From contig NZ_KI911784.1 of assembly GCF_000516515.1 (NCBI RefSeq), forward strand, positions 2,760,881 through 2,824,880: 64,000 bases of DNA, in the 5' to 3' direction. The notes below the pieces were generated by a model. That model had not been told where the DNA came from. It saw only the letters and a program-made list of their open reading frames with translations, and searched no databases. The stretch is from Chloroflexus sp. Y-396-1. Lineage in GTDB: Bacteria > Chloroflexota > Chloroflexia > Chloroflexales > Chloroflexaceae. How positions within the stretch are numbered: position 1 is the stretch's first letter; each line of letters begins with the position of its first letter. Below, in pieces: positions 43,536-62,761 of this stretch. The translations under genes and the position numbers were made by a program.

Positions 43536-44990
43536 TTAGCAATTCGTGGTTAATCGGCAACGGTCGAACAGGATGTCGTACAAGCGACTCAGTACCTGAA
43601 GCGGTACCTGAAGCTGATAACAGAGCATCCCATCCCAAATCAACCCCTTCCGCAAATCTGGTCTGATAAACGTCCATTGGGCGATCAGTCCCACATTCCA
43701 GAAGACAAACAAAACCGCACCGGCCAATAACGGCTTCCAGCCGAACCGCATCTGCAACCAAGACAGCACGCTTGCCAGCCCTAGCACGAAGATCGGTGTA
43801 CATTCGATCAGACGCCGAAAGCCAAACGATCCACTCAGATGCCAGGTGGTTCCGAAGGCGCCATTGATATAGACCTGCCCCAAAAAACCAACGAACAGCA
43901 GTAGCGCCAACGGCCCATCACGCCGAAAGAGCCAGATCAAACCGATCAGGGCTACCGCCAAAATCGGACTCCAGAGCAATGCGCCGTGGGCTGGATGAAT
44001 CAGGGTATCCCAAAAGTGTGGACTAACCAGAACCGGCAACCATCCGATCGACACAAACGCCAGCTTACTCCCAACCGTTGTCGATGGGCCAAGCCGCCCA
44101 TTGAGCACCCAGTACGTTGCCAGTTGTGGGGTTAGCGATAAGACGAACACCACGAGAAAGATCAGGTGACCGATAAACAGCTCACGCACGACCGACCACT
44201 GCCAGCGCCGCAGAGCACCGATATAAGCAGCCAGTGCCTCTAGGGCAGGAATAATGAGCAACAAGCCTAACTGCTCACGGGTCATCACCATCAAACCGGC
44301 GACCACACCTGACGCAAACCAGACGCTCCAATGACGTCGGCCATCGCTACGTCCGATCGATCCCTCACGACCGTACATCCAGATCGTAAGGAAGAGCGTG
44401 AAGAGGAAGAAACCAGCGGTATGTGACCAGGCCATTGCCAGGTAAGTATAGAAGACTAATGGCGTGGCAAGGAAGATAGTCAGCGTTGCTATCAGCGCCG
44501 GTACCTGATTGGTGTAGAAACGGGTCAGGCGGTAGGTTAGCAACAAGCCGAGCAGGCTATACAAGGCCGACATCATACACACCGCAACGATATAGGGTCG
44601 GCTATAACCATCGCGTGGAATGTCAGCACTGGTAGCATTTATTACCTGTACCCAGAGATCGGCTAACACGAAACCAGGCGCCCAGAGTAGTGCCGAGCCA
44701 ATTGGGGCGACATTGCGCAGCTTTCTGGTCGTCGGATTGGGGTTAGCATCGTCTTGACGTAAAAGGGCATTAAATACCGCCTGATCATCATTCTGCAAAC
44801 CGATGTCGGCGAAATGTTGATATTCATTCCTGAAATCGAGATCACGGTCAAAATAAAACGAGCGCAGATAGGCGTAATACTGTACTTCATCGCTCAGCGC
44901 GATCCGCGGCAGACTCAACGGCAAGAGGGCAAGAAAGACCAGGACGATGACGAATGGTCCCAGGTCGCGGTTGGCAAAAAAAGCGCGCAT
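43536..44990 (-). CDS. Polytopic membrane glycosyltransferase (GT-C type)
   Basis: A 484-residue protein with about ten or more hydrophobic helices. An acidic pair in the first outer loop (IALSDEVQYYAYLRS, near residue 30-45) is placed as in GT-C glycosyltransferases of the PMT/ArnT kind that use polyprenyl-phosphate sugars. It would transfer a sugar to lipid or protein at the outer membrane face. No specific family name is justified. AGGAG lies before the ATG at 44990. The gene appears to be alone, and its stop faces the histidine phosphatase gene. Confidence 0.7.
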   Translation of the reverse strand: MRAFFANRDLGPFVIVLVFLALLPLSLPRIALSDEVQYYAYLRSFYFDRDLDFRNEYQHFADIGLQNDDQAVFNALLRQDDANPNPTTRKLRNVAPIGSALLWAPGFVLADLWVQVINATSADIPRDGYSRPYIVAVCMMSALYSLLGLLLTYRLTRFYTNQVPALIATLTIFLATPLVFYTYLAMAWSHTAGFFLFTLFLTIWMYGREGSIGRSDGRRHWSVWFASGVVAGLMVMTREQLGLLLIIPALEALAAYIGALRRWQWSVVRELFIGHLIFLVVFVLSLTPQLATYWVLNGRLGPSTTVGSKLAFVSIGWLPVLVSPHFWDTLIHPAHGALLWSPILAVALIGLIWLFRRDGPLALLLFVGFLGQVYINGAFGTTWHLSGSFGFRRLIECTPIFVLGLASVLSWLQMRFGWKPLLAGAVLFVFWNVGLIAQWTFIRPDLRKGLIWDGMLCYQLQVPLQVLSRLYDILFDRCRLTTNC

Positions 44991-45099
44991 ACGTCACGCT
45001 ACTCCTGGTAGTACAAAGAAGGTTCATGTACGTACTGGTTCGACTAGGCAGGTAGGATGCCTTTACGTTGGCGGGTATCGCTAGTAGGTAAGCATCCTT

Positions 45100-45301
<202 letters not shown>

Positions 45302-45794
45302 CATCCCTCCACACCAATTGTTTCGTGCAGTGCTACTCTTTCCCTTTGCTCCGCACAGTGCTATTGTACGACGAATCGGCAAACGCATCGCGAATGGTGG
45401 GTTTGGCTCGTGGAAGCGAGATAGAACAACTGGGAGAAAAGGTCGTCTGGTATAGCGACTAATCGGCGTAAGGTCAATCACTGCTAGGCATGGCGACCGA
45501 GCTGGTCAACCCTTCAGCATGGTCGGCATCACTGCTGTATCATCGAGACTCGTGCCGATTCGGAATGACGATAGGTGTGGTGTGATCGTTGTGTTGGTTA
45601 GTATCAACGCTGTGGAGACGGGGGAGGAACCCGCCCTTACCGGATGCGTTAGCGTTTGTGATTGGGAATAACTCTCCTTGATCATCAGGTATAACAATCA
45701 GCCTTGAAAAGACTTGAACGTGCCGCAGCTATGCTGCAAGCACGCTCAAGTTGGGGGAAGTATCGATCCTCAGAACTCCTAACGGAACACCAGT
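45302..45794. other. Intergenic region, 490 bp
   Basis: No credible gene. A GGCGGGTTCC-like GC-rich word near 45620-45640 resembles the hairpin at 26106. The terminator at 45712-45751 is listed separately. Confidence 0.45.
45712..45751 (-). terminator. Terminator of the first secreted cassette
   Basis: A long stem (ACTTGA, CGTGC and GCAGC paired with their complements around ATA) is followed on the minus strand by CTTTTC. It lies 44 bp after the stop of the 45795 gene. Confidence 0.8.
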
Positions 45795-48122
45795 CTAGCG
45801 CTGGAGCAGCGGCACGTACACTGTCGGGAAAGTTACCTGATCAAGGGTGATCGTGGCTGCCGGTAAGAGTGCGGCAGGACCAGCACTACCGCTCACACTC
45901 GGATTTCCGGCGCCATCGAGCATTCGAGCGTAAACATAATATGATCCCGGTGTAAGCTGCTCTTCCGCTAAACCGCTGGCCAGACTCCACATAATAGTGA
46001 AGCTGTTGCTATCGCCGGGAGCTTCAACCGGGAACCAGACGAGATTCGGATCGTTTGCCGGATCGGCAACCGGAGTACGACTGTTGGCTAGCCAAACCCC
46101 CCAGAAACCACGCCCAGGGTAAAGGTTATCGGTGACCGCAATATTCGTAAACTCGAGATTAACAATAATGGTTGCACTATCAGGGATCGGCAGCACCTGT
46201 ATGTTACCACCATTAAGCACTGGTGGCGTTGTGTCGTAAATGAGGGTCCGGTTGATCACAATCGAGTTATTGAGAGCATCGCGTACTCGGATGAATACCG
46301 GTAATGATCCCTCATTAACGATATCGGGGTAGGGTAGTACGTTCGCAAACCGACCGCCACTGATGGCCATATTGCTTACACTATTAAGTGCTGCACTGTT
46401 AGGAGCAAGGGCAAAGGTTTGCAAACCGCTGCAATCGCCCAGGTTGCGAATTTCGACGTAGACGGATGGGATGCGAGTATAATCGGGGTGACCATCACTG
46501 GTCCCACCATCGCCGACCAGATCGGCCGGTGTAGGCGCGGTAAACGGCGAGGTTCGCAAACGTGAGAAGGGATTGCCAACCGTCACACTGCCCAACACAC
46601 CGGTATCGATCACGACTGCATCTGAACGCACCTGATCGATCAGATTGTTCTCTGTACGACGCAATTGTGTATATAGCACTCGTTCCACACACCCTGCATC
46701 GGTGCGCAGCGCGTCAGGAATAGGCACTGTCAGAATACTGGTTGGGCCAGTCGGATTGAACGGCTGCCAGCCACCGGAGTCATTTTCGGTATCGGTTGGC
46801 GGTGCTCCCCAACGCCAGCGCACCTGATCGGGGAGATTCGTTGTACCGAGATCAGGGAAGGTGACATTCACCGAAACTTTGCCATCACCCCCGATCACTG
46901 GAGCATCATTTTCAATTTGTGGACGCGAACCAAAGATGGCGCCGGGCGCCCGGAATAAGACGTAACGAGGAAGTGGTACAGTGCCCTGGAATAATTCATG
47001 AACGACGTGCATGTAGCTCCGCACTCCGATTCGAGCATCACCCCACGCATTGAATACCGGTGCAACGGTTGGAGCACTGACAACGGGGAGGAAACCTTGA
47101 TTTACTGGCCTGACAGCATAGAACAGTTGGTTGACATTACGATTGGTACCCTGCCGAATCCAGGAGAGATGCAGATTCCCCTGTTGGTCGTAGTCAACAT
47201 TCACCCGGCCATCACCTTTACCACTAATTAATTGAGTTGACGTCCATGGGCCACTAAAATTGCTGACCAGCTTTTCGGCAAAGAAGATTCCATCATCCGC
47301 CCCACGAAAGGCAACCACGATGCGCGTGTTTGGCGCCGGATCAGGACTGAATGAGACGCTGGCGTCGGCAAAGACTGCTGATGTGCTACCGTTTACATCA
47401 ACCGGCGGATTAAAACCGGTGCCATTCCAGAGCGCAACCATAACGTGCAATGGACGTGGCGTATCACGGGTGAAGGTAATTGCCAGCTCGCCATTTGGTC
47501 CGGCAGCCATTGCGGTTTGTGACTTGTAGGCCAGTGCTCCCGGTACCGACCCTACGGCTGACCATGTCGTTCCTCGGTCGTTGGAATAAGAAAAGTTGAT
47601 ATTTTTGTCGTCACGCCACGCAGCGACGATCTGACCGTTTGTACGCACCGCTAGAGCCGGTTCGACCGCGAAAATATGACCACGCATCACTTCAAACGTT
47701 GCTGGATTCCATGCGCCGCCCGGTTCACGACGACGGAACTGGATCGTTTTCGCGACTTGATCGATCCACAGCACATAGACTTCGCCGGTAGGTGCGGTTG
47801 TAACAGCCGTCTGGTACCAATCTTGCGCCTTTCCAGTAAGAACTGAACCAAGTGCTATTGGCGCCGGAAAAACATTATCTTCTTCGCCTTTAATCCAAAG
47901 TTTGACCGTGCCATTATTCTCTGATGAAATGCCGTCGGTAGCGCTTACGTACACACCATTCGCATCAACAGCCAGTTGCGGGTACTTGGTATTGCTGGCC
48001 GGAAGATTGGTTTCAAGGACGAAGCTGGCACCTTCTTGTGCTTGTGAAGGAAGCGGTGATACGCCAACCAGTACAACAACGATGCAACACATTGTGATGA
48101 TGAGCGAAGGTAGACGCATCAT
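45795..48122 (-). CDS. Large secreted BNR/sialidase-like protein, paralogue 1
   Basis: A 775-residue secreted protein read from the tandem ATGs at 48122/48119, preceded by AGGAG. A signal peptide (basic MMRLPSL, hydrophobic core, cleavage after PSQA) starts the chain. Residues ~30-400 have repeated blades with Asp-box-like sequence (FSYSNDRGTTWSAVG) as in sialidase/BNR propellers. The middle part (VRWRWGAPPTDTENDSGGW) and the C-terminal beta-rich Ig-like modules (~550-760) are shared with the protein at 50044. No catalytic set typical of sialidases was identified, so a binding or structural surface role is as likely as hydrolysis. It follows the 256-residue partner by 79 bp. Confidence 0.72.
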   Translation of the reverse strand: MMRLPSLIITMCCIVVVLVGVSPLPSQAQEGASFVLETNLPASNTKYPQLAVDANGVYVSATDGISSENNGTVKLWIKGEEDNVFPAPIALGSVLTGKAQDWYQTAVTTAPTGEVYVLWIDQVAKTIQFRRREPGGAWNPATFEVMRGHIFAVEPALAVRTNGQIVAAWRDDKNINFSYSNDRGTTWSAVGSVPGALAYKSQTAMAAGPNGELAITFTRDTPRPLHVMVALWNGTGFNPPVDVNGSTSAVFADASVSFSPDPAPNTRIVVAFRGADDGIFFAEKLVSNFSGPWTSTQLISGKGDGRVNVDYDQQGNLHLSWIRQGTNRNVNQLFYAVRPVNQGFLPVVSAPTVAPVFNAWGDARIGVRSYMHVVHELFQGTVPLPRYVLFRAPGAIFGSRPQIENDAPVIGGDGKVSVNVTFPDLGTTNLPDQVRWRWGAPPTDTENDSGGWQPFNPTGPTSILTVPIPDALRTDAGCVERVLYTQLRRTENNLIDQVRSDAVVIDTGVLGSVTVGNPFSRLRTSPFTAPTPADLVGDGGTSDGHPDYTRIPSVYVEIRNLGDCSGLQTFALAPNSAALNSVSNMAISGGRFANVLPYPDIVNEGSLPVFIRVRDALNNSIVINRTLIYDTTPPVLNGGNIQVLPIPDSATIIVNLEFTNIAVTDNLYPGRGFWGVWLANSRTPVADPANDPNLVWFPVEAPGDSNSFTIMWSLASGLAEEQLTPGSYYVYARMLDGAGNPSVSGSAGPAALLPAATITLDQVTFPTVYVPLLQR

Positions 48123-48201: not shown

Positions 48202-48972
48202 CTACGGTGTGACGATCACATCATCGAACAGCATGCCACCAATGGCACGGGTGTAGACCCCAACCCGCCCTGCCGGTAAGGGTTGGGCATCATTGGCTTG
48301 CATCAGCAGCTTGCCATCGAGGCGGGCGGTCAGGGTATTCCCCCGCATCTCTAGCTCGATGACGTGCCACTGACGTGGGGCAAAGCCCGGTCCCTCCACC
48401 GTTGCCAGCGGGGTCGCCACGCCATCCACCACCCTTTCCAGAACATATTTCGGGGTCGCTTCGTACTCGCGCTTCAACAGGCGCAGTAAATAATAGCTGG
48501 CCTCGTAGCCAAGCTCACCCTGATAGCGAGCGACCACCCCGGCAATGCCGTTAAACTCATCGTAGAAACTCACCCGCACCACGCCATCGGTGAAGGTGGT
48601 GGGTGCCAGCAGCGTGACCTGGGCGAGCGAGCTGTTGCGCAATTCACCGGCAAAATCCTGGCGTAGACGACCGTTGTCGATCACCCAGTTGGCGCGGTCT
48701 TCGGGTAAGACGAAATCGAGTTCGACGGACTGCCAGACGGTCAGGCTGTCGGCCGAGGCAAAATCGGCCACGAACTGCGGGCCGGTGGCCAGATTAGCGG
48801 GGACGGTCGGGTTGGGGCCAATAGTGGGGGCTGGTGGTTCGGGTGGATACTGCAAGATTGGCCCACCCTCTTCGGCCTGACCGGAACGGAGCGCCAGCCA
48901 AAAGCCTCCGATGATGACCACCATCACTAACAACAGTGATGACATGAGCAGGAGAGGTCGGCGGTTCCACAT
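48202..48972 (-). CDS. Secreted concanavalin-like domain protein, paralogue 1
   Basis: A 256-residue protein with an N-terminal membrane anchor or signal (RPLLLMSSLLLVMVVIIGGFW), a Pro-rich spacer (PPEPPAPTIGPNP), and one ~190-residue domain of the LamG/DUF1080 beta-sandwich type. Its characteristic pattern is QWHVIELEMRGNTLTARLDGK near 210, ending with GGMLFDDVIV. AAGGAGG precedes the ATG at 48972. The domain is almost identical, at DNA level too, to that of the gene at 52408, while the signal region is not. It probably binds polysaccharide at the cell surface and works with the downstream propeller protein. Confidence 0.75.
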   Translation of the reverse strand: MWNRRPLLLMSSLLLVMVVIIGGFWLALRSGQAEEGGPILQYPPEPPAPTIGPNPTVPANLATGPQFVADFASADSLTVWQSVELDFVLPEDRANWVIDNGRLRQDFAGELRNSSLAQVTLLAPTTFTDGVVRVSFYDEFNGIAGVVARYQGELGYEASYYLLRLLKREYEATPKYVLERVVDGVATPLATVEGPGFAPRQWHVIELEMRGNTLTARLDGKLLMQANDAQPLPAGRVGVYTRAIGGMLFDDVIVTP

Positions 48973-49440
48973 CGTAAATTCCTCCTTGCAGATGAAGCTT
49001 ACCGGCATTGTACAACGTAGCCGACAATATTGGTAGAGACAGCATATAACGAAAAAGTACTGAAAACGGTAAAAGTTTCGCGCTAAATTTGATGAGTGAG
49101 AAGCGAGACGTGAGTAGAGTCGATGTTCCTGATACTGTACTGTAATGTTAGGACATAGAAGCAATACTAGATGCGGAGCAACGAGCTGCTGATAGTGAAT
49201 CATGTGTCGATTGAACCTACGGCGGTTGTAGAGTCGTTGGGATGACCTTTTTAGGGCATCAATCTACTCGTATTACATAAACGGTGACGCACATACATAG
49301 TTGACATCAAATCTCAACCTGATGCTTGGCATTGCTTCTCCATCATTCCTCGTATATGCAGTGTTTGCCATCTGCTCACGTACATTTTCTGGCTCCAAAG
49401 TGATACCGGGTTTTCTTCTGTACGACGTGAATGTTGTATT

Positions 49441-49644
49441 GACTCCACTGCAAAAAGGTGATCTTTCCACCACAGAGATCACGGAGATCGCAGAGACTAA
49501 AGATAATCTTACCTTTCATTGAACATAGGGTTGTGACAATTTTTCTTACAATGCGCCCAATGGCCAAAAATTATCCTTATTATTCATAAACCTTACACGC
49601 TCTGTGTACTCTGTGTGCTCCGTGGTACGTTTTCGCATGGCACT
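49441..49644. mobile_element. MITE-like element, copy 4 (204 bp, degenerate right end)
   Basis: The left end GACTCCACTGCAAAAA is intact. The right end (TTTTCGCATGGCACT) has several substitutions. Flanking 7-mers TTGTATT (49434-49440) and CTTTATT (49645-49651) match at five of seven. It is probably the oldest insertion in the window. Confidence 0.8.
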
Positions 49645-49799
49645 CTTTATTTATATAACGCAGGAGTGCGTCAAAAGATACGCCTGTTATCAAAAGTATC
49701 TCTTTCAAGTCTGCATACCAAACTAAACCTGATACATCATATTGGATGCACGTACTGCTGGCCCACATTCAGCCTGTCGGGTGAATCAATGATAGGCAC

Positions 49800-49829
49800 A
49801 AAAAACCAAACGTAATCGTTTGGTTTTTT
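49800..49829. terminator. Bidirectional intrinsic terminator
   Basis: The perfect stem AAAAAACCAAACG / CGTTTGGTTTTTT with a 4-nt loop has T-runs on both strands. On the minus strand it lies about 215 bp beyond the 50044 stop. Confidence 0.8.
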
Positions 49830-50010
49830 GCAATAAGTTCTTATCAAACCTGTGCGCTAGAGCTTGTGGCTGTACAAGGGTTGAGCGGGAAACTGCATAG
49901 TCACTTCAAATATGAACGAGATATTTCGCTTGCTTCGGTAGCTTGCCGGTACCGGTATGCGTGAAAGGTTATTATGACAGGGCAATGCTATCCTCTACGC
50001 TTAATTGAAA

Positions 50011-50031
50011 GGGGCACGGAAGCCGTGCCCC
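50011..50031 (-). terminator. Terminator of the second secreted cassette
   Basis: The stem GGGGCACGG / CCGTGCCCC with a 3-nt loop is followed on the minus strand by TTTC, 12 bp after the 50044 stop. Confidence 0.75.
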
Positions 50032-50043
50032 ACATGTACTTCG

Positions 50044-52383
50044 TCAGCGTGACGTTAATGGGATATAGGTACGTGCTGGTGTCAGAGTACTGGTAGCGGT
50101 CGTCTCTAACACGACGTTACCAATATTACCGGCACGATCAATGAGGCGCACGTAAATATGGAACGTTTGCTCAGGTGCACTGGTCGTAGCCATCGTGACC
50201 CCAGGTGCATTCGCCATACTCCAGGACGGCACGGTAAATTGACCACCGTTGAAATCAACCTTCGTTGCAATCCAGCGCAGCGTAGATTCAGTGGCCGGAT
50301 TAGAGACTGCGTTCGGACTTACGGCAATCAAGACACCTAAGATACCGTTGGTCTCAGTCACTGTTGCCGTAGAGAGATCAAAGGTGAGATCCTGAAGAAT
50401 ATCGCCTAACGGCGAATCGGTTGCCGTAATGGACTCACTTCCGCTCAGCGTCATCTGCGGTGGGGACCGGTCAAGGCGGATCGTCCTGGTAACGGTTTGT
50501 GAATTCCCTAACTGATCGTAAACACGCACGAGGACTGGGTAATCACCGTCCGGCGATGGTGGTGAGAATGTGGTACCGGGTAGCGGTACGATAGCGTCCA
50601 GGGTACCATTAACATCAAGGTCACTTGTGGTTGCTAACTCTGCCATGCTACTCGCAACTCTAACCCGTGAAACCTGCGAGCAATCACCGCCATCGCTGAC
50701 CGATAGCCAGACCTGCGTCGTCGGTGTACTACCGGGGTCGAGATCGCGCACCGAGTAGTTGGAAGCATACCAGCTCGCTGTATCGTACAACAGCGGATTG
50801 GCAACCTGAACAGTCGCTACAAGATTGGTGTCAATGATGACACTTGCCTTGCGCTCCATTGTCTCCACAACAGGCGCAGTCCCATTTCGCCGCAACTGCG
50901 TGTACAACGTGCGTGGCGTACAATCGTTGACATTCAGGAAAGCTGTAGGGATAGGCACGGTCAATTCGGTGGTAGCAGTGGCATTAGATGCCAATGGTAC
51001 CCAACCACCAGAGTCGTTTTCGGTATCGGTAGGTGGCGCACCCCACCGCCAGCGTACACTCACATCTTGCGGCGTAGACCCAAGGTCGGGAAAAGTCACC
51101 TTAATCGAGGTACGACCATCACCGCCAACTCGTGCAGCGCCGCCTTCGATCAAGGGATCGGAGCCAAATGGCGAACCAGGTGCTTTGAAGAGGGCATAAC
51201 GGAGAAACGGTGTCTCACCGTTAAACAATTCATGGGCTACATGCATGTAGAAGCCACTGCCTGAACTGTTAACGCCCCAGGCATTGAACAGGGGTCCAGA
51301 AGTTGCCGACTCTATGGGGCCGAGGAATGTACCATTTGCATACCGGAACGCATAGTTAAGCCGATTCTGGCTCCGGCTCCCTGGAGTACGAATCCACGAG
51401 ATGTGTAAGTTGCCATACGGATCGATACTTACCGAAACCTGACCATCTCCCTTATCACCGGTCAGGCGTGATCGGGACCACACCTGATTGTCAAAAAAGT
51501 TGCTGATGTCTTTTTCAGCGTAGAATACACCGTTATCTGCGTGGCGGTAACCGACATAGATTTTGCCGTTATAGATGGCAACGCTACTATCGGCATAAGG
51601 GGAAGAGTCGCCAAGATTGACATCCACCGGTACGCTGAAGCCATTGCCCTGCCACAATGAAACCATCACGTGCAGCGGGCGTGGTGCGTCGCGCGTAAAG
51701 GTCAGCACGACCTCACCATTCGTACCAGAAGCTAAATGCACAACTGCACGGTAAACCTTCATCCCAAAAGCACGCGCTACTGGCGCCCATGAAGCGCCAC
51801 CGTTGTCAGAATACGAGTAGTAGATAGAGGCATCATTACCGGTGAAGTCATCGCGCCAGACAGCGATAATGCGCCCATTCTGGGGGCCACCATTCACTAC
51901 AGTAAGCGCGGGTCGCACCGGAAAAGAAAGGTTACGTGTTATCTCGAAGATAGCGCCCCAATTTCCGGCAGTGTCGCGTTTGCGAAACCGCATAATTTTG
52001 GCGGCCTGATCAATCCAGAGTGTCAGGACCTCGCCAGATGGTGAGGTTGCAATGGCGCTGTTGATGTATTCGGGGTTTGTAGATGTGCGGGATGTGGTAC
52101 CCAACGTAAATGGGCTTGGAAATGCCGTGCCGGTCTCTGTCTTTGTCCAGACTCGCGCTTTGCCATCGGAAGCCCCGCTCGATTCCGCAATTCCTATCAA
52201 ATGCACTTGATCCTTGAAAGTTGCCGCCTGGGGCAGCTTGAGGTTCGCACTGTTAGGCAAAACGGTCTCAACCAGTAATTGCAGTGGAGCTTGAGCTGCT
52301 GTCGGGATAGCAGATGGAAGCGTGCTGATAAGCAAGGTCAAAAGCGCAGACAGCACAAACACGGTGCGGAAAAGTATCTTCAT
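50044..52383 (-). CDS. Large secreted BNR/sialidase-like protein, paralogue 2
   Basis: A 779-residue secreted protein with the same layout as the one at 45795: a signal peptide (MKILFRTVFVLSALLTLLIS, cleavage after TAAQA), propeller-like blades with an Asp-box-like YSYSDNGGASWAPVA, the shared VRWRWGAPPTDTENDSGGW segment, and C-terminal Ig-like modules. Overall similarity to paralogue 1 is moderate by eye, with identity concentrated in the middle. GAGGAG precedes the ATG at 52383. It follows its 256-residue partner by only 24 bp and belongs to a run of minus-strand genes starting at the methyltransferase. Confidence 0.72.
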   Translation of the reverse strand: MKILFRTVFVLSALLTLLISTLPSAIPTAAQAPLQLLVETVLPNSANLKLPQAATFKDQVHLIGIAESSGASDGKARVWTKTETGTAFPSPFTLGTTSRTSTNPEYINSAIATSPSGEVLTLWIDQAAKIMRFRKRDTAGNWGAIFEITRNLSFPVRPALTVVNGGPQNGRIIAVWRDDFTGNDASIYYSYSDNGGASWAPVARAFGMKVYRAVVHLASGTNGEVVLTFTRDAPRPLHVMVSLWQGNGFSVPVDVNLGDSSPYADSSVAIYNGKIYVGYRHADNGVFYAEKDISNFFDNQVWSRSRLTGDKGDGQVSVSIDPYGNLHISWIRTPGSRSQNRLNYAFRYANGTFLGPIESATSGPLFNAWGVNSSGSGFYMHVAHELFNGETPFLRYALFKAPGSPFGSDPLIEGGAARVGGDGRTSIKVTFPDLGSTPQDVSVRWRWGAPPTDTENDSGGWVPLASNATATTELTVPIPTAFLNVNDCTPRTLYTQLRRNGTAPVVETMERKASVIIDTNLVATVQVANPLLYDTASWYASNYSVRDLDPGSTPTTQVWLSVSDGGDCSQVSRVRVASSMAELATTSDLDVNGTLDAIVPLPGTTFSPPSPDGDYPVLVRVYDQLGNSQTVTRTIRLDRSPPQMTLSGSESITATDSPLGDILQDLTFDLSTATVTETNGILGVLIAVSPNAVSNPATESTLRWIATKVDFNGGQFTVPSWSMANAPGVTMATTSAPEQTFHIYVRLIDRAGNIGNVVLETTATSTLTPARTYIPLTSR

Positions 52384-52407
52384 GGATCTGCTCCTCGGCT
52401 AGTTCAC

Positions 52408-53178
52408 TCATGGGCTGACGATGAAATCATCGAACAGCATGCCACCAATGGCACGGGTGTAGACCCCAACCTGCCCTGCCGGTAAGGGTTGGGCATCATT
52501 GGCTTGCATCAGCAGCTTGCCATCGAGGCGGGCGGTCAGGGTATTCCCCCGCATCTCTAGCTCGATGACGTGCCACTGACGCGGGGCAAAGCCCGGTCCC
52601 TCCACCGTTGCCAGCGGGGTCGCCACGCCATCCACCACCCTTTCCAGAACATATTTCGGGGTCGCTTCGTACTCGCGCTTCAACAGGCGCAGTAAATAAT
52701 AGCTGGCCTCGTAGCCAAGCTCACCCTGATAGCGAGCGACCACCCCGGCAATGCCGTTAAACTCATCGTAGAAACTCACCCGCACCACGCCATCGGTGAA
52801 GGTGGTGGGTGCCAGCAGCGTGACCTGGGCGAGCGAGCTGTTGCGCAATTCACCGGCAAAATCCTGGCGTAGGCGACCGTTGTCGATCACCCAGTTGGCG
52901 CGGTCTTCGGGTAAGACGAAATCGAGTTCGACGGACTGCCAGACGGTCAGGCTGTCGGCCGAGGCAAAATCGGCCACGAACTGCGGGCCGGTGGCCAGAT
53001 TAGCGGGGATGGTCGGGTTGGGGCCGATGGTAGGGGCTGGCGGTTCGGGCGGATACTGCAAGATTGGTCCACCCTCTTCGGCCTGGCTGGAACGAAAGGC
53101 CAGGATGAGGGCTGCGCCGACTGCTAGCACTGTAGCCGCGAGCGCGAGTACCGATACGAGACTGGTTTTTCGCGTCAT
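52408..53178 (-). CDS. Secreted concanavalin-like domain protein, paralogue 2
   Basis: A 256-residue protein with the same domain as the gene at 48202. The first ~32 residues (a different signal, with TSLVSVLALAATVLAVGAAL) are unrelated, then SQAEEGGPILQYPPEP begins near-identity. I see only four residue differences after that point: V/I in the spacer, R/Q, V/F and T/S near the C-terminus. AGGAGG lies before the ATG at 53178. It is downstream of a glycosyltransferase gene on the same strand, which supports a role in surface polysaccharide. Confidence 0.75.
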   Translation of the reverse strand: MTRKTSLVSVLALAATVLAVGAALILAFRSSQAEEGGPILQYPPEPPAPTIGPNPTIPANLATGPQFVADFASADSLTVWQSVELDFVLPEDRANWVIDNGRLRQDFAGELRNSSLAQVTLLAPTTFTDGVVRVSFYDEFNGIAGVVARYQGELGYEASYYLLRLLKREYEATPKYVLERVVDGVATPLATVEGPGFAPRQWHVIELEMRGNTLTARLDGKLLMQANDAQPLPAGQVGVYTRAIGGMLFDDFIVSP

Positions 53179-53216: not shown

Positions 53217-54482
53217 TTATTGGCTCAGCATTGGCGCCGGTAGAAGCTGACCTTGCAACGTGGCCTGGTACAGACTGGCCAAATCGGTAGCGATCTGCAC
53301 CGACGAGAATTGCGGCGCCAGCGTTGCAGCCCGTGCGCTATATGCGAGCCATATATCTGGGTCACGCAATAGCGACACAATTGCCTCACCAATAGCCGGT
53401 CCTGAACGCGGTTCAACAACGAAACCAGCCTGGGCCGCTGCCACGTAGGCACTGGCACCGGTTGTACGCGTAACGACTGGCGGCGTGCCGACTGCACAGG
53501 CTTCAATTACCACCCGACTAAACGACTCTGCAACCGACGAGACAACCGCGACATCTGCACCGGCTAGATAAGTACGGGCTTCGTGGTGTGGGATAGCACC
53601 GGTAAACATAATATCGGCTGCTACTCCCAATTCCAACGCACGGCGATGGAGAAATGCGCCGTAATCGCCGAAACGTGGTGTTGAGCGATTCGGCCCGACA
53701 ATAACCACTTGCGGTGAAAGACCGGCAGCACGGATGGTAGGGATGGCTTCAACCAAATAGGCAATTCCTTTGAAAGGATGGAGCCGGTTGAGACTGACAA
53801 TAATGGGTCGGGATGGATCGAGACGATGGCGAGTAACAATAATTTCCCGACTGTGAGCACGAAACACACTCAGTGGCGTATCGTGCGGCGGAAAACTATC
53901 GGCGGTAATATTGTATGGAATGGCCGTTACCTTGGCTGGCGGTGCACCGCGAGCAATTGCCAGCTCCCGGATCTGCGGTGAATCGGCACGGATCACTCGT
54001 GCCTGCTGAAACACATATGGCAACACGGCGCGCACTGCCGGAAAACGCGCATAGCCATAGTCATATTCGGGTTCAGCCATCACATCGGCGCCGGGTAAGG
54101 TTACGGCCAGCGGTGGCACCCATCTACCGGCGAGGAGTGCGGCGAAGCCGAGCGGAAATGCCGTTTCCACGTGACAAAGATCATAAGTTGGATTGGTCGC
54201 AAAGAAACGGCGCATCCCAATAATCGCACTGGCCAGATATGGGTAGAAAAAGAGTGCAGCTAATGCACGATTGGCAAGTTGCGTTGTGAAACGACCACGC
54301 GAAGGCAAGCGATGAACAACGATACCGTCTTCAATCGTGCGGGTAAGTTGGGATTGCGCGGGCGCCAGACTGAGAACTTCGGCTGTTATCCCTAACTCTC
54401 GCCAGGCGTGTATCACCTCGGTATGAATCCGATTGCCCATCGCCGCACTATCGTAGCGCGGTAATATGTAGATGACTCGCAT
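53217..54482 (-). CDS. Glycosyltransferase family 4 (GT-B fold)
   Basis: A 421-residue cytoplasmic glycosyltransferase read from MRVIYILPRY at 54482. The N-terminal Rossmann half contains the MGNRIHTEVIHAW loop near 15-27. The donor-binding half has SLNRLHPFKGIAYLVEAI near 230, VVIVGPNRSTPRFG near 265 and the family's E-x7-E region AESFSRVVIEACAVGTPPVVT near 320-340. It retains the features of GT4 enzymes that use nucleotide sugars with retention of configuration. Donor and acceptor are unknown. It lies between a methyltransferase and the secreted cassette, in one apparent transcript. Confidence 0.88.
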   Translation of the reverse strand: MRVIYILPRYDSAAMGNRIHTEVIHAWRELGITAEVLSLAPAQSQLTRTIEDGIVVHRLPSRGRFTTQLANRALAALFFYPYLASAIIGMRRFFATNPTYDLCHVETAFPLGFAALLAGRWVPPLAVTLPGADVMAEPEYDYGYARFPAVRAVLPYVFQQARVIRADSPQIRELAIARGAPPAKVTAIPYNITADSFPPHDTPLSVFRAHSREIIVTRHRLDPSRPIIVSLNRLHPFKGIAYLVEAIPTIRAAGLSPQVVIVGPNRSTPRFGDYGAFLHRRALELGVAADIMFTGAIPHHEARTYLAGADVAVVSSVAESFSRVVIEACAVGTPPVVTRTTGASAYVAAAQAGFVVEPRSGPAIGEAIVSLLRDPDIWLAYSARAATLAPQFSSVQIATDLASLYQATLQGQLLPAPMLSQ

Positions 54483-54557
54483 GGTTGATTCCATTCCAGG
54501 CATATCCTACCATGACTCAGACGTATGCGCGAGGAAATTTGTTCCATATGGTACGGC

Positions 54558-58584: not shown

Positions 58585-58607
58585 GGAGTGAGGAGTGAGG
58601 AGTGAGC
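58567..58607. repeat. 7-bp tandem repeat (GTGAGGA, ~5.9 units)
   Basis: Five exact GTGAGGA units followed by GTGAGC. The hemG stop codon (58582-58584) lies within the third unit. Confidence 0.92.
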
Positions 58608-58624
58608 GATGGGGGCGTTTGGCG

Positions 58625-58850
58625 CCCTCACCTTCCCCCTAGCCCCCTTCCTCTCCCACACGGGGAGAGGAAGGGGGAGTGTACCCCCTCACCTTCCCCC
58701 CGGCCCCCTTCCTCTCCCACCTGGGGAGAGGAAGGGGGAGTGTACCCCCTCACCTTCCCCCTAGCCCCCTTCCTCTCCCACCTGGGGAGAGGAAGGGGGA
58801 GTGTACCCCCTCACCTTCCCCCCGGCCCCCGTCCGCTCTCACCAGAGAGA
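58625..58850. repeat. 61-bp tandem array of palindromic units (~3.7 copies)
   Basis: Units start at 58625, 58686, 58747 and 58808. Each of the first three contains CCCCCTTCCTCTCCC and its exact complement around a 5-nt loop, giving a 15-bp hairpin. The fourth unit is degenerate and incomplete. It lies between the convergent hemG and clostripain-like genes, where the hairpins may also end transcription. Confidence 0.9.
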
Positions 58851-58864
58851 ATCGCGTCCTACGG

Positions 58865-61800
58865 CTATGGCCCACGCACGATCAGTGGCACGTACACCAT
58901 TTCGTTCGGCTGAAGCATGCGCAGTAATGCCGGTGGCTCAATCTCACCACCGAATAATCCCGTCACACCAAAGTAGTCAACCAGTAAATCGTCCCAGTGA
59001 CCGTTATTCGTGAATTGGAATATCCGGTGGAACATATAGTCTCGGTACCCGCTCCCACCCGACTGGGGCGGGTAGTAGAGGCTGACCCCGTGAGCCTGAT
59101 CGAGGTCAATCACGCTGTTGGCATATTGACCACTCGCCCTCCTAGAGACCACGACCAACTGCGTGCGCACCCTATCCATCACCTGCTGTGCGGCAGCACC
59201 GATGGACGAGTTAGGGATTGACCGTACCAGACTTGCCCAATGGTAGAGGTCAATATACTCATCTTGCATGTTGTTAACGTAGGCAGGGAGACGTGAGTCG
59301 AATGTTTGCACCGCCTGGCGTGCGTTTTTCAGTGGCGTTTGTACGCTGTTTATCTCATTGCGGAGCAGGGTTGCCAGGTGGTCGAGCGCCTGACGCACCG
59401 ACTCAACCTGCCCCAAATCAAGCACCGAGATTGTGCGTGGCAGGCCGGTCAGTTGCGGATGCCCGAAATACCGTTCGGCGATCTGCGTCGCCAGGGTGCG
59501 GGGCGTACTTTCGGTGCTCACCTCTGCAATCACGTCGTTGAGACCTGCCAACATCGGGATAGCCTGGAGACCGACCTGCCCGGCATATTCGCGATAGGCA
59601 AAGACCGACCAGGCTAGGTATTGGGAGGCAATCAGATAATGGGCGTAGTTACGTACCTCATACGCATGCTCGAACAGGGCCATCGAGCAGGCATCGTAGT
59701 GGACAATATCAATCTTGTGCTGCCCGTTATTCGTTGCCGCTTGCAAGGCTGACCGGAGTTCTTCGGGTGCGAGTACATCGTGCGTGTTATTCCAATCTGG
59801 GCCAATACCCACCAATCCATTCCCGTGCCCGGCCAGGGCCAGATAGGAATATCGGGCTGGGTAGCGCTCCCGTGCCCACTGGACAAACGCCTGGAGGGTT
59901 TGCGGGTTGCCCATATTAAGCTCACCTAGCGGCTCGCGCTGTACCCCTGTTGCCTCAAACACCAGGCGCTGCGTATCACCGTTTTGGTGACCATCGACCA
60001 GGGCTACGATAAGAACATTGGGGTTCGCTGCGGATCGTTCGAGGGCCTGAAGCGCACGTTCTATGTAGCGATAAAGGTCATTATCACCGTTGAGGTAGAG
60101 CATAAAGAGGAAGTGCGAACAATCGGCGGTGGTGGCAGTTAGCTCTTCGCTCATTGCCGACTCGCCGGCGGCATTGTAGGCACTCACCCGATAACGATAG
60201 CTCTGGCCGCAGCTCAGGCCGGTATCGGTGTAGGTGGTGACATTCGCGCCCAGAGTGGCAATGCGCGTTCCGTTGCGATAGAGGTGGAAGCCAATTTCGT
60301 TAGTCGCGTTGTCCTGCCAGGCGAGGGTGATACTGGTAGTGGTGCTCCCGATCTGGCGCAGGTTACTAGGAGGTTGGGGTAGTGCGGGGGTGGCCGTTGG
60401 GATGGTCGTGGCTGTCGGCGATGGGGTCAGTGTCGGGGATGGCGTAGGGATGGCCGTGGTCGTCGGGGATGGGGAGGCTGTCGGCGATGGGGTCAGTGTC
60501 GGCGATGGGGTCGCTGTCGGGATGACTTCTCCCGGACCACCCGACTGTGGTGTAGGTGGTCCTATTATTGGTGGTGTTGGAGGTGTAGGAATAGCATCAA
60601 CTCTCGCCCACTCCAGCGCCAGCGTCGCTCCACCATCCCGATCCCAATGTTCGAGCAGCAGCTTATGGTAGCCCGCAGACAGCTCAACGGTCACCTCGCG
60701 GGTGGGCGACTGCGGCTGCCAGGACTCGACCAGCAGCCGGTCATCGACCCAGAAACGCACGCCATCGTCGGCGCGGAGGGTGAAGCGGTAGCGTCCGGCA
60801 GTCGGGAAATTCACGTAGCGCATCCAGCGACTGGTGAAATGGTCGGCAGGGATGGTCGCCGCCGGTTGCCCGGCCCACGACCGGTTCAGGAACAGGTCGG
60901 GGACGTTTTCAACGTGCAGCACCGGTCCGGCGAGCCAGTCGTTGGCGAAGAACTCGCCGCGCCAGGCATTTGGGTAGTCTGTTCCGAACACCTGGATGCG
61001 GTAGTTGTAGTAATCTGCCACGTAGACGGTGCCGTCGGGTGCAATGGCTACGCCAGAAGGATTGCTAAACTGCCCGTCGCCTCTGCCATACGACCCCCAC
61101 TTGTCGAGAATAGTTCCGTCGGTGTGGAAGCGCAGAATTTGGTGGTTTCCACCAGTCACATAGACCGTACCGTCGGGTGCAACTGCTATGCCAGCAGCTC
61201 TCATCCACCAGTTGCTTAAGAGGTTTCCGTTGGTATCGAAACGCTGGATGCGATCATCGTCCGCCACATAGACCGTGCCGTCAGGCGCCACTGCCACCTC
61301 GGAGGGATTGTTGAACTGACGATTGCCGCTGCTATACTCACCCCATGCATTGAGAAAAGTGCCAGTTGCTGTGAAGTGCTGAATGCGGTGGTTCCAGCGA
61401 TCTGTTACATAAACCGTACCGTCGGAAGCCACTGCAACGTCAGAGGGATAACTGAACTGACTTTCGCTCTGACCGCGTGATCCCCATCCACTAAGGAAAG
61501 TTCCATCGGCACTGAAACGCTGGATGCGGTGGTTGCCCCAATCCGCCACGTAGACCGTACCGTCAGGCGCCACTGCCACGCCAGACGGAGAAGAGAACTG
61601 CCCGTTGCCACTGCCGGATGCCCCCCACGCGCCGAGGAAGGTTCCGTCGGCGCTGAAGCGCTGGATGCGGTTACTATCCGCCACGTAAACTGTACCGTCA
61701 GGTGCCAATGCCACGTCGGAAAGAGATCCGAACTTCCCGTCGCTACTGTCTGGCACTCCCCACTTGCCGAGGAAAGTTCCGGTAGCGCTGAATTGCTGGA

Positions 61801-62761
61801 TGCGGCGGTTGTCGCTATCTGCAATGTAGACTGTACCATTAGATGCAACCGCCATACCGGAAGGTTTGTTAAACTGCCCGTCGCCACTGCCAGAAGACCC
61901 CCACGTACCCAGAAAGGCTCCAGTAGCGCTGAAGTGCAGGATGCGGTTATTCCAGGAATCCGCCGCGTAGACAGTGCCGTCGGAGGCCACTGCCACCTCG
62001 TTACTGCCGTATGCCATCCATGTAGTGAGAAAAGTTCCGCCGGCGTCGAAGCGCTGGATGCGGTGGTTGCCCCAATCCGCCACGTAGACCGTACCGTCAG
62101 GCGCCACTGCCACGCCAGACGGAGAAGAGAACTCCCCATTGCCGCTGCCCGACACTCCCCACGTACCGAGGAAGGTTCCGTCGGCGCTGAAGCGCTGGAT
62201 GCGGTGGTTGCCCGTATCCGCCACGTAGACCGTGCCGTCGGGCGCCACGGCCACGCCGCCAGGAGAGCTGAACTGCCCGTCATTGTAACCCTGCTGCCCC
62301 CACCTGCTGAGGAACGCGCCGGTGGCGCTGAAGCGCTGGATGCGATGGTTGCCCGTATCCGCCACGTAGACCGTGCCGTCGGGCGCCACCGCCACGCCGT
62401 GAGGATTGTAGAACTGCCCGTCACCATAGCCGTACACTCCCCACCCACCGAGGAACTCGCCGGTGGCGCTGAAGCGATGGATGCGGTGGCTGTCGCTGTC
62501 TGCCACGTAGATGGCGCCGTCGGGCGCCACTGCTACATCGGAAGGTTTGTTGAATTGCCCTACCGATGCCTGAGCGCCGATAGCAAACTGGAAGAAGCGG
62601 TACGGCTGCGTCTGCTGTGTCGTGATACCGCCAGCAGGTGCGGCTGCAACGATACCCTCACTAACGATCAATCTTCCGGTGGTGATCGAGTTCCCCAATC
62701 CTACGCCAATGACCGCCATGATGATGGTGAGGGTAATCACGAAACGATACCTCGACTGCAC
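58865..62761 (-). CDS. Giant secreted protein: NHL propeller repeats, PA14, FN3 and clostripain-type protease
   Basis: A 1298-residue protein starting with GTG at 62761 (GGAGGA at 62766-62771). A signal or anchor helix lies at ~8-25. Residues ~45-595 hold 12 NHL-type repeats of ~46 residues (VAVAPDGTVYVADxxxHRIQRF), enough for two six-bladed propellers. A PA14 domain (~600-720, GRYRFTLRADDGVRFWVDD) follows. A Pro/Thr spacer (~725-800) and an FN3 domain (~800-885) lead to a clostripain-type (C11) cysteine protease (~885-1240) with the histidine in LALAGHGNG near 979 and the cysteine in HYDACSMALFEH near 1023. Secretion plus binding modules suggest a surface protease that recognises glycan or protein ligands. 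Confidence 0.85.
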   Translation of the reverse strand: MQSRYRFVITLTIIMAVIGVGLGNSITTGRLIVSEGIVAAAPAGGITTQQTQPYRFFQFAIGAQASVGQFNKPSDVAVAPDGAIYVADSDSHRIHRFSATGEFLGGWGVYGYGDGQFYNPHGVAVAPDGTVYVADTGNHRIQRFSATGAFLSRWGQQGYNDGQFSSPGGVAVAPDGTVYVADTGNHRIQRFSADGTFLGTWGVSGSGNGEFSSPSGVAVAPDGTVYVADWGNHRIQRFDAGGTFLTTWMAYGSNEVAVASDGTVYAADSWNNRILHFSATGAFLGTWGSSGSGDGQFNKPSGMAVASNGTVYIADSDNRRIQQFSATGTFLGKWGVPDSSDGKFGSLSDVALAPDGTVYVADSNRIQRFSADGTFLGAWGASGSGNGQFSSPSGVAVAPDGTVYVADWGNHRIQRFSADGTFLSGWGSRGQSESQFSYPSDVAVASDGTVYVTDRWNHRIQHFTATGTFLNAWGEYSSGNRQFNNPSEVAVAPDGTVYVADDDRIQRFDTNGNLLSNWWMRAAGIAVAPDGTVYVTGGNHQILRFHTDGTILDKWGSYGRGDGQFSNPSGVAIAPDGTVYVADYYNYRIQVFGTDYPNAWRGEFFANDWLAGPVLHVENVPDLFLNRSWAGQPAATIPADHFTSRWMRYVNFPTAGRYRFTLRADDGVRFWVDDRLLVESWQPQSPTREVTVELSAGYHKLLLEHWDRDGGATLALEWARVDAIPTPPTPPIIGPPTPQSGGPGEVIPTATPSPTLTPSPTASPSPTTTAIPTPSPTLTPSPTATTIPTATPALPQPPSNLRQIGSTTTSITLAWQDNATNEIGFHLYRNGTRIATLGANVTTYTDTGLSCGQSYRYRVSAYNAAGESAMSEELTATTADCSHFLFMLYLNGDNDLYRYIERALQALERSAANPNVLIVALVDGHQNGDTQRLVFEATGVQREPLGELNMGNPQTLQAFVQWARERYPARYSYLALAGHGNGLVGIGPDWNNTHDVLAPEELRSALQAATNNGQHKIDIVHYDACSMALFEHAYEVRNYAHYLIASQYLAWSVFAYREYAGQVGLQAIPMLAGLNDVIAEVSTESTPRTLATQIAERYFGHPQLTGLPRTISVLDLGQVESVRQALDHLATLLRNEINSVQTPLKNARQAVQTFDSRLPAYVNNMQDEYIDLYHWASLVRSIPNSSIGAAAQQVMDRVRTQLVVVSRRASGQYANSVIDLDQAHGVSLYYPPQSGGSGYRDYMFHRIFQFTNNGHWDDLLVDYFGVTGLFGGEIEPPALLRMLQPNEMVYVPLIVRGP

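Follow-up and report, generated by a model that had tools for sequence, protein, structure and literature searches.

We examined a window of 64,000 nt from Chloroflexus sp. Y-396-1 (GCF_000516515.1, contig NZ_KI911784.1; all positions are in window numbering), which carries two tandem cassettes on the minus strand, each with a small gene for a predicted concanavalin-like jelly-roll protein followed by a large gene for a predicted beta-propeller protein. The copy 2 cassette (52408-53178 and 50044-52383) adjoins a GT4-type glycosyltransferase gene, and the copy 1 cassette (48202-48972 and 45795-48119) lies on the side of a PMT_2 membrane glycosyltransferase gene. The mature domains of the small genes have been homogenized recurrently, and the edges of the homogenized tracts can be read in the genomes. 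Comparison among relatives makes it highly probable that this arose by recurrent gene conversion between the small genes of an ancestral tandem duplicated cassette in the Chloroflexales, independently in each species. The cassettes comprise the following features, all on the minus strand:

Small gene, copy 1: 48202..48972; 256 aa, with a 31-aa signal/anchor peptide, a Pro-rich linker and a concanavalin-like jelly roll
Signal peptide type-1 (copy 1): 48880..48972; nt identity 78% to copy 1 of a C. aurantiacus-like genome and 42% to its own copy 2
Leader type-1 (copy 1): 48973..49092; presumed promoter region, kept among copy-1 genes and unrelated to the copy-2 leader
Newest putative conversion tract, copy 1: 48211..48801; covers mature codons 27-223, where the copies differ at 3 of 591 nt
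Newest putative conversion tract, copy 2: 52417..53007; counterpart of the copy 1 tract
Large gene 1: 45795..48119; signal peptide, beta-propeller (BNR-like), immunoglobulin (Ig)-like sandwiches and C-terminal YVPLLQR, with a fold predicted from the modeled paralog
Small gene, copy 2: 52408..53178; start 38 bp behind the upstream glycosyltransferase gene
Large gene 2: 50044..52383; architecture of large gene 1, C-terminal YIPLTSR, structure model with a predicted local distance difference test (pLDDT) score of 85.4

Small genes are near-identical within diverged cassettes

The small genes align by BLASTN without gaps over 688 bp (48210-48897 and 52416-53103) at 97.5% identity, with 17 differences, whereas the rest of the cassettes gave only short or weak matches, a dispersed repeat aside. 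An earlier, sequence-only reading of this DNA had recognized near-identical small partners beside diverged large partners. Comparably high identity across the large partners, which would have spoken against conversion, was not found (38-43% protein identity to each other), and the block proved larger and somewhat more varied than the ~655 bp and about ten differences given in that reading. Of 687 nt in the mature domain, 15 distinguish the copies. Twelve of these differences fall at the edges (7 within the first 78 nt and 5 within the last 18 nt, 96 nt in all), so that the clustering reported for the upstream edge is matched by a second cluster at the other end; the remaining 3 lie in the 591-nt core. 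The densities in core and edges differ strongly (Fisher p = 9e-9), and the longest run is also significant for this pair (p = 0.003), which is the fairer figure because the core was delimited after the differences had been seen.

Homology ends sharply where the signal peptide ends (R-S/G-Q-A-E-E), in agreement with the abrupt boundary previously placed at SQAEEGG, but the newest tract starts ~80 bp further inside the mature domain. The 3' edge also retains old differences (codons 224-229). At edge codons 19, 20, and 224, the split between copy 1 and copy 2 is identical to that in the aurantiacus-like genome, and the core has no such split, which implies that these sites preserve what preceded the latest tract. 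Beyond the block, nt identity of the two copies falls to 42% for the signal peptide and to 30% for the leader of 120 bp. The signal peptides, which had been called unrelated, are both exactly 31 residues long, and each is orthologous to the copy at the same position in other species; hence, they are old and diverged rather than arbitrary.

Mature domains group by species and cassettes by position

We compared four species: the source of the window, C. islandicus (G007), and aurantiacus-like and aggregans-like relatives whose single-contig genomes of 5,258,541 and 4,684,931 bp we take to be C. aurantiacus and C. aggregans. Three of the four genomes are single contigs. Both cassettes are present in all four species in the order methyltransferase-GT4-small2-large2-small1-large1(-PMT2), where the methyltransferase was not matched in the aggregans-like locus and PMT2 lies outside some of the compared stretches. 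Mature domains group by species, with identities of 97, 87, 97, and 100% within species and 71-78% between species. In the mature-domain tree, the copies likewise form same-species pairs whose support is full or nearly so, and approximately unbiased (AU) tests rejected both a copy-1 clade (p-AU 7e-47) and a grouping of copy 1 of the window with copy 1 of the aurantiacus-like genome (p-AU 9e-62).

By contrast, the large genes group by position, save for one converted half in the aggregans-like genome. Copy-1 leaders and signal peptides also group by position, at 82 and 78% between the window and the aurantiacus-like genome, and at 93 and 87% between the islandicus and aggregans-like genomes. 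Copy-2 genes group more weakly across species (leaders 33-50%, signal peptides 53-62%), and same-species paralogs share 30-40% in leaders and 41-53% in signal peptides. Gene order, large genes, leaders, and signal peptides thus support a duplication older than the species split and indicate that the tandem pair predates the genus.

Synonymous divergence (dS) within pairs was 0.06 in the window (nonsynonymous divergence, dN, 0.010), 0.63 in the aurantiacus-like genome, 0.115 in C. islandicus, and 0 in the aggregans-like genome, compared with ~0.9-1.5 between orthologs. As a control, orthologs from the window and the aurantiacus-like genome were ~80-82% identical at the aa level, with large and small genes about equal, which implies that the near-identity of the small copies does not result from slow evolution.

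Tracts in relatives, direction of conversion, and a candidate crossover product

The C. islandicus copies match exactly over codons 30-134 (run p 5e-5), and later codons have drifted. No tract reached significance in the aurantiacus-like pair (p 0.60), which fits an old event. The aggregans-like pair shares an identical stretch of 1,945 bp that starts in the final codons of the signal peptide, spans the intergenic gap, and reaches residue ~402 of the large gene. Within large gene 1 this tract breaks off abruptly, with an immediate drop in identity to ~60% or less, and its breakpoint coincides with the end of the predicted propeller. The first 402 residues of the aggregans-like large gene 1 are 54% identical to type 2 and 39-42% to type 1, whereas the remainder is 69-75% identical to type 1 and 35-38% to type 2. 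Because the converted half is of type 2, the donor was copy 2, and the direction in this one species was from copy 2 to copy 1. The sequence-only reading had favored a recent conversion or replacement of one domain. The low dS (0.06 in the block of the window compared with ~1.4 between orthologs), the ancestral differences at the edges, and the independent tracts in relatives bear out conversion, and the tract of the window does lie within the small gene, but the aggregans-like tract includes half of a large gene, and the data strongly support recurrent, independent conversion in at least four species rather than one recent event.

A metagenome-assembled genome (MAG), G004 (L042 7304-13522), has a complete GT4-small-large-PMT2 locus with one cassette that combines a type-2 signal peptide with a type-1 large gene. 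Lineages on either side of the deepest split of the genus (hemN tree) carry large gene 2, so that cassette loss by direct-repeat recombination is the simplest explanation for G004. The G004 cassette, read from a MAG assembly, is likely what a crossover between the small-gene repeats would leave behind. Another MAG with swapped signal peptide and large gene pairings (G006) was set aside, since a gap lies inside its small gene on one contig.

In other genera, small-gene pairs suggest older conversion events. The cassettes of G010 (L048, L049) are on different contigs, and their small genes are 90% identical at the aa level with a dS of 1.00, where the large partners fall in different old clades. 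The small pair of G012 is 84% identical (aa) with a dS of 1.08. For the large genes, orthology by position beyond the genus was rejected for the propeller half (p 6e-6, 7e-8) and not for the C-terminal half (p 0.23-0.35). This pattern is compatible with an old tract over the propeller half in the genus stem, but equally with separate duplications, and we draw no claim from it.

Proposed mechanism and alternative explanations

In the model that we favor, a two-gene cassette encoding a small jelly-roll protein and a large propeller/Ig-like protein would have been tandemly duplicated in an ancestor between the GT4 and PMT_2 genes. The small genes, as direct repeats ~4.2 kb apart, would then exchange sequence through homologous recombination, presumably of the RecA type, mostly as non-crossover gene conversion repeated separately in each species. 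Leaders and signal peptides probably diverged beforehand; homology would then end with the signal peptide and set the 5' tract limit there, and selection is not needed to explain it. On the 3' side, tracts would mostly end with the small gene and sometimes enter the large gene, and occasional crossovers may delete one cassette.

Several points weigh against this interpretation. Conservation is lower in copy-2 leaders than in copy-1 leaders. Recombination is deduced from genome comparison, which is at the level of species and gives neither a rate nor a direction for the lineage of the window. The signal is weaker in the next genus-level relatives, where the G011 pair is 62% identical (aa) and does not cluster, implying that the process is not universal. 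Moreover, function is predicted from fold, with Pfam matches below cut-off.

Purifying selection could by itself hold the mature domains alike without DNA exchange, and the aurantiacus-like copies are clearly constrained, with a dN of 0.024 at a dS of 0.63. However, little or no synonymous difference remains between the copies in three species (dS 0.06, 0.115, and 0), the aggregans-like tract runs across the intergenic gap and also covers half of the large gene, and dN/dS between paralogs is not clearly below that between orthologs (0.04 in the aurantiacus-like pair compared with ~0.07, with dS near saturation); we consider this explanation very improbable. Equally little credence can be given to recent tandem duplications of the cassette that arose separately in each species; these would likewise pair small genes within species, but they conflict with large genes, signal peptides, and 5' leaders that are old and orthologous by position, and with the constant order of both cassettes between GT4 and PMT_2. 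Misassembly that placed the sequence of one copy in the other is scarcely more credible. Draft genomes do break exactly in the small gene, as repeats would cause (a contig end in G001, a run of N in G006), but three genomes are single contigs, the copies are non-identical in three of the four species, and the differences in the genome of the window lie mostly at tract edges, some of them shared with a relative.

A further question is whether recurrent conversion is itself selected, because both large partners or both expression programs need the same small protein. We regard this addition as unlikely, though far from negligible. Homogenization recurs in several lineages, both copies are under purifying selection, and distinct leaders and signal peptides precede one common mature domain; on the other hand, neutral conversion limited by homology also accounts for these boundaries, part of the large gene was overwritten as well in the aggregans-like genome, and dN/dS reveals no extra constraint. 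The earlier proposal that selection may keep the domains matched gained no clear support: the 5' boundary is accounted for by homology that ends at the signal peptide, and the copies are not clearly under stronger purifying constraint relative to each other than orthologs are. A slightly more doubtful extension is that small-gene recombination is kept by selection as a module shuffler, which would keep one carbohydrate-binding domain common to both cassettes despite their separate expression and would exchange leaders, signals, and the propeller of the partner through crossovers and long tracts, as in the aggregans-like chimera and the G004 hybrid.

Predicted function and locus organization

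The predicted structure of the small protein, modeled for the near-identical copy 2 (pLDDT 86.5), begins with an N-terminal helix, followed by a proline-rich linker and a jelly roll. Foldseek matches were CBM66 and galectin-like proteins, with a TM-score of ~0.8 by target length for CBM66, so that model and search both show the jelly-roll beta sandwich of the concanavalin-like fold. The small proteins scored 22.9 and 22.8 bits for PF06439 (3-keto-disaccharide hydrolase), below the Pfam gathering cut-off of 26.8, and the large proteins scored 22.3 and 22.7 bits for BNR_2, below the cut-off of 31.4. The large-protein model contains a signal helix, a propeller, and then Ig-like sandwiches, and its fold search returned sialidases, propeller lectins, and other propellers. 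The glycosyltransferase setting suggests carbohydrate work at the cell surface or outside the cell, and the small protein may bind carbohydrates, either at the cell surface or in secreted form, and be produced by two cassettes with separate expression. The cassettes are flanked or separated by these features, all on the minus strand:

GT4-type glycosyltransferase: 53217..54503; conserved neighbor on the copy-2 side
Terminator-like hairpin: 50011..50031; directly 3' of large gene 2; 9 pairs, 8 of them G-C, loop of 3
PMT_2 membrane glycosyltransferase: 43536..44990; conserved neighbor on the copy-1 side

Separate expression of the cassettes is likely, given that small gene copy 2 closely follows the GT4 gene, a hairpin follows large gene 2, and copy 1 has a conserved leader of its own. 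The hairpin is suggestive only, as 3 such hairpins were observed in the region compared with 1.8 expected. Copy 1 starts at ATG 48972, with AGGAGG upstream of the start. A consensus scan of its leader (48973..49092) found no sigma-70 match, and promoter function is presumed. This leader is 93% identical between the islandicus and aggregans-like genomes, higher than the 78% of the coding domain that follows, and is therefore probably regulatory. The 4.89-Mb single-contig genome contains two copies of the small gene and no third.

Tails of secreted proteins in the window are alike, namely YVPLLQR (45795-48119), YIPLTSR (50044-52383), and YVPLIVRGP (58865-62761), with YVPLVSR and FLPMVQR in relatives; this common C-terminal tail looks like a sorting or anchoring signal of the group. 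A non-coding repeat of ~205 bp at 45098-45302 and 49439-49645 was considered as a flank of the cassette duplication and rejected, because it is a dispersed element with 49 genome matches at 83-95% identity; at two sites in the genome (around positions 1244108-1245108 and 2591522-2592277) it is arrayed in tandem, repeating about every 166 bp. Downstream of a hemY-like gene, a 61-bp tandem repeat (CCCTCACCTTCCCCC...) occupies 58602-58913 in three or more copies at 94-95%.

Relation to known systems and significance

The closest precedent is mtrA-1/mtrA-2 of methanogens, where only the non-membrane domain is homogenized (PMC4632066). Both systems have adjacent paralogs, one domain repeatedly homogenized within species, one protein end that stays different, and long recurrence. 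However, the mtrA case is archaeal and concerns a single gene in an operon, a methyltransferase subunit whose membrane domain was swapped by fusion, whereas the Chloroflexus case concerns a secreted protein that differs at its signal-peptide end, two-gene cassettes, and tracts that can reach the partner gene. A survey listed 26 recurrently converted prokaryotic genes, such as tuf, psbA, and amoA/B/C (Wang and Chen, 2018; PMC6053082), and the small secreted family is not among its tabled genes. As in those genes, paralogs pair by species and synteny reveals old orthology; unlike in them, homogenization covers only part of each gene, and there are four clear species, compared with the survey threshold of five species in an order. 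The predicted fold resembles concanavalin-like jelly rolls (CBM66, galectin-like 1oq1, and PF06439), at ~14% sequence identity and a Pfam score below cut-off. A search of a literature library on Chloroflexus and gene conversion returned nothing on this locus.

We conclude that the locus is a clean new case of a rare, already known process. Recurrent conversion confined to one domain is on record for very few genes of prokaryotes. In this culturable thermophile genus, natural genomes reveal both tract edges, the direction of conversion in one species, and a probable crossover product, so that the roles of homology length and selection in setting tract boundaries become testable. Trees built from such converted genes will mislead.
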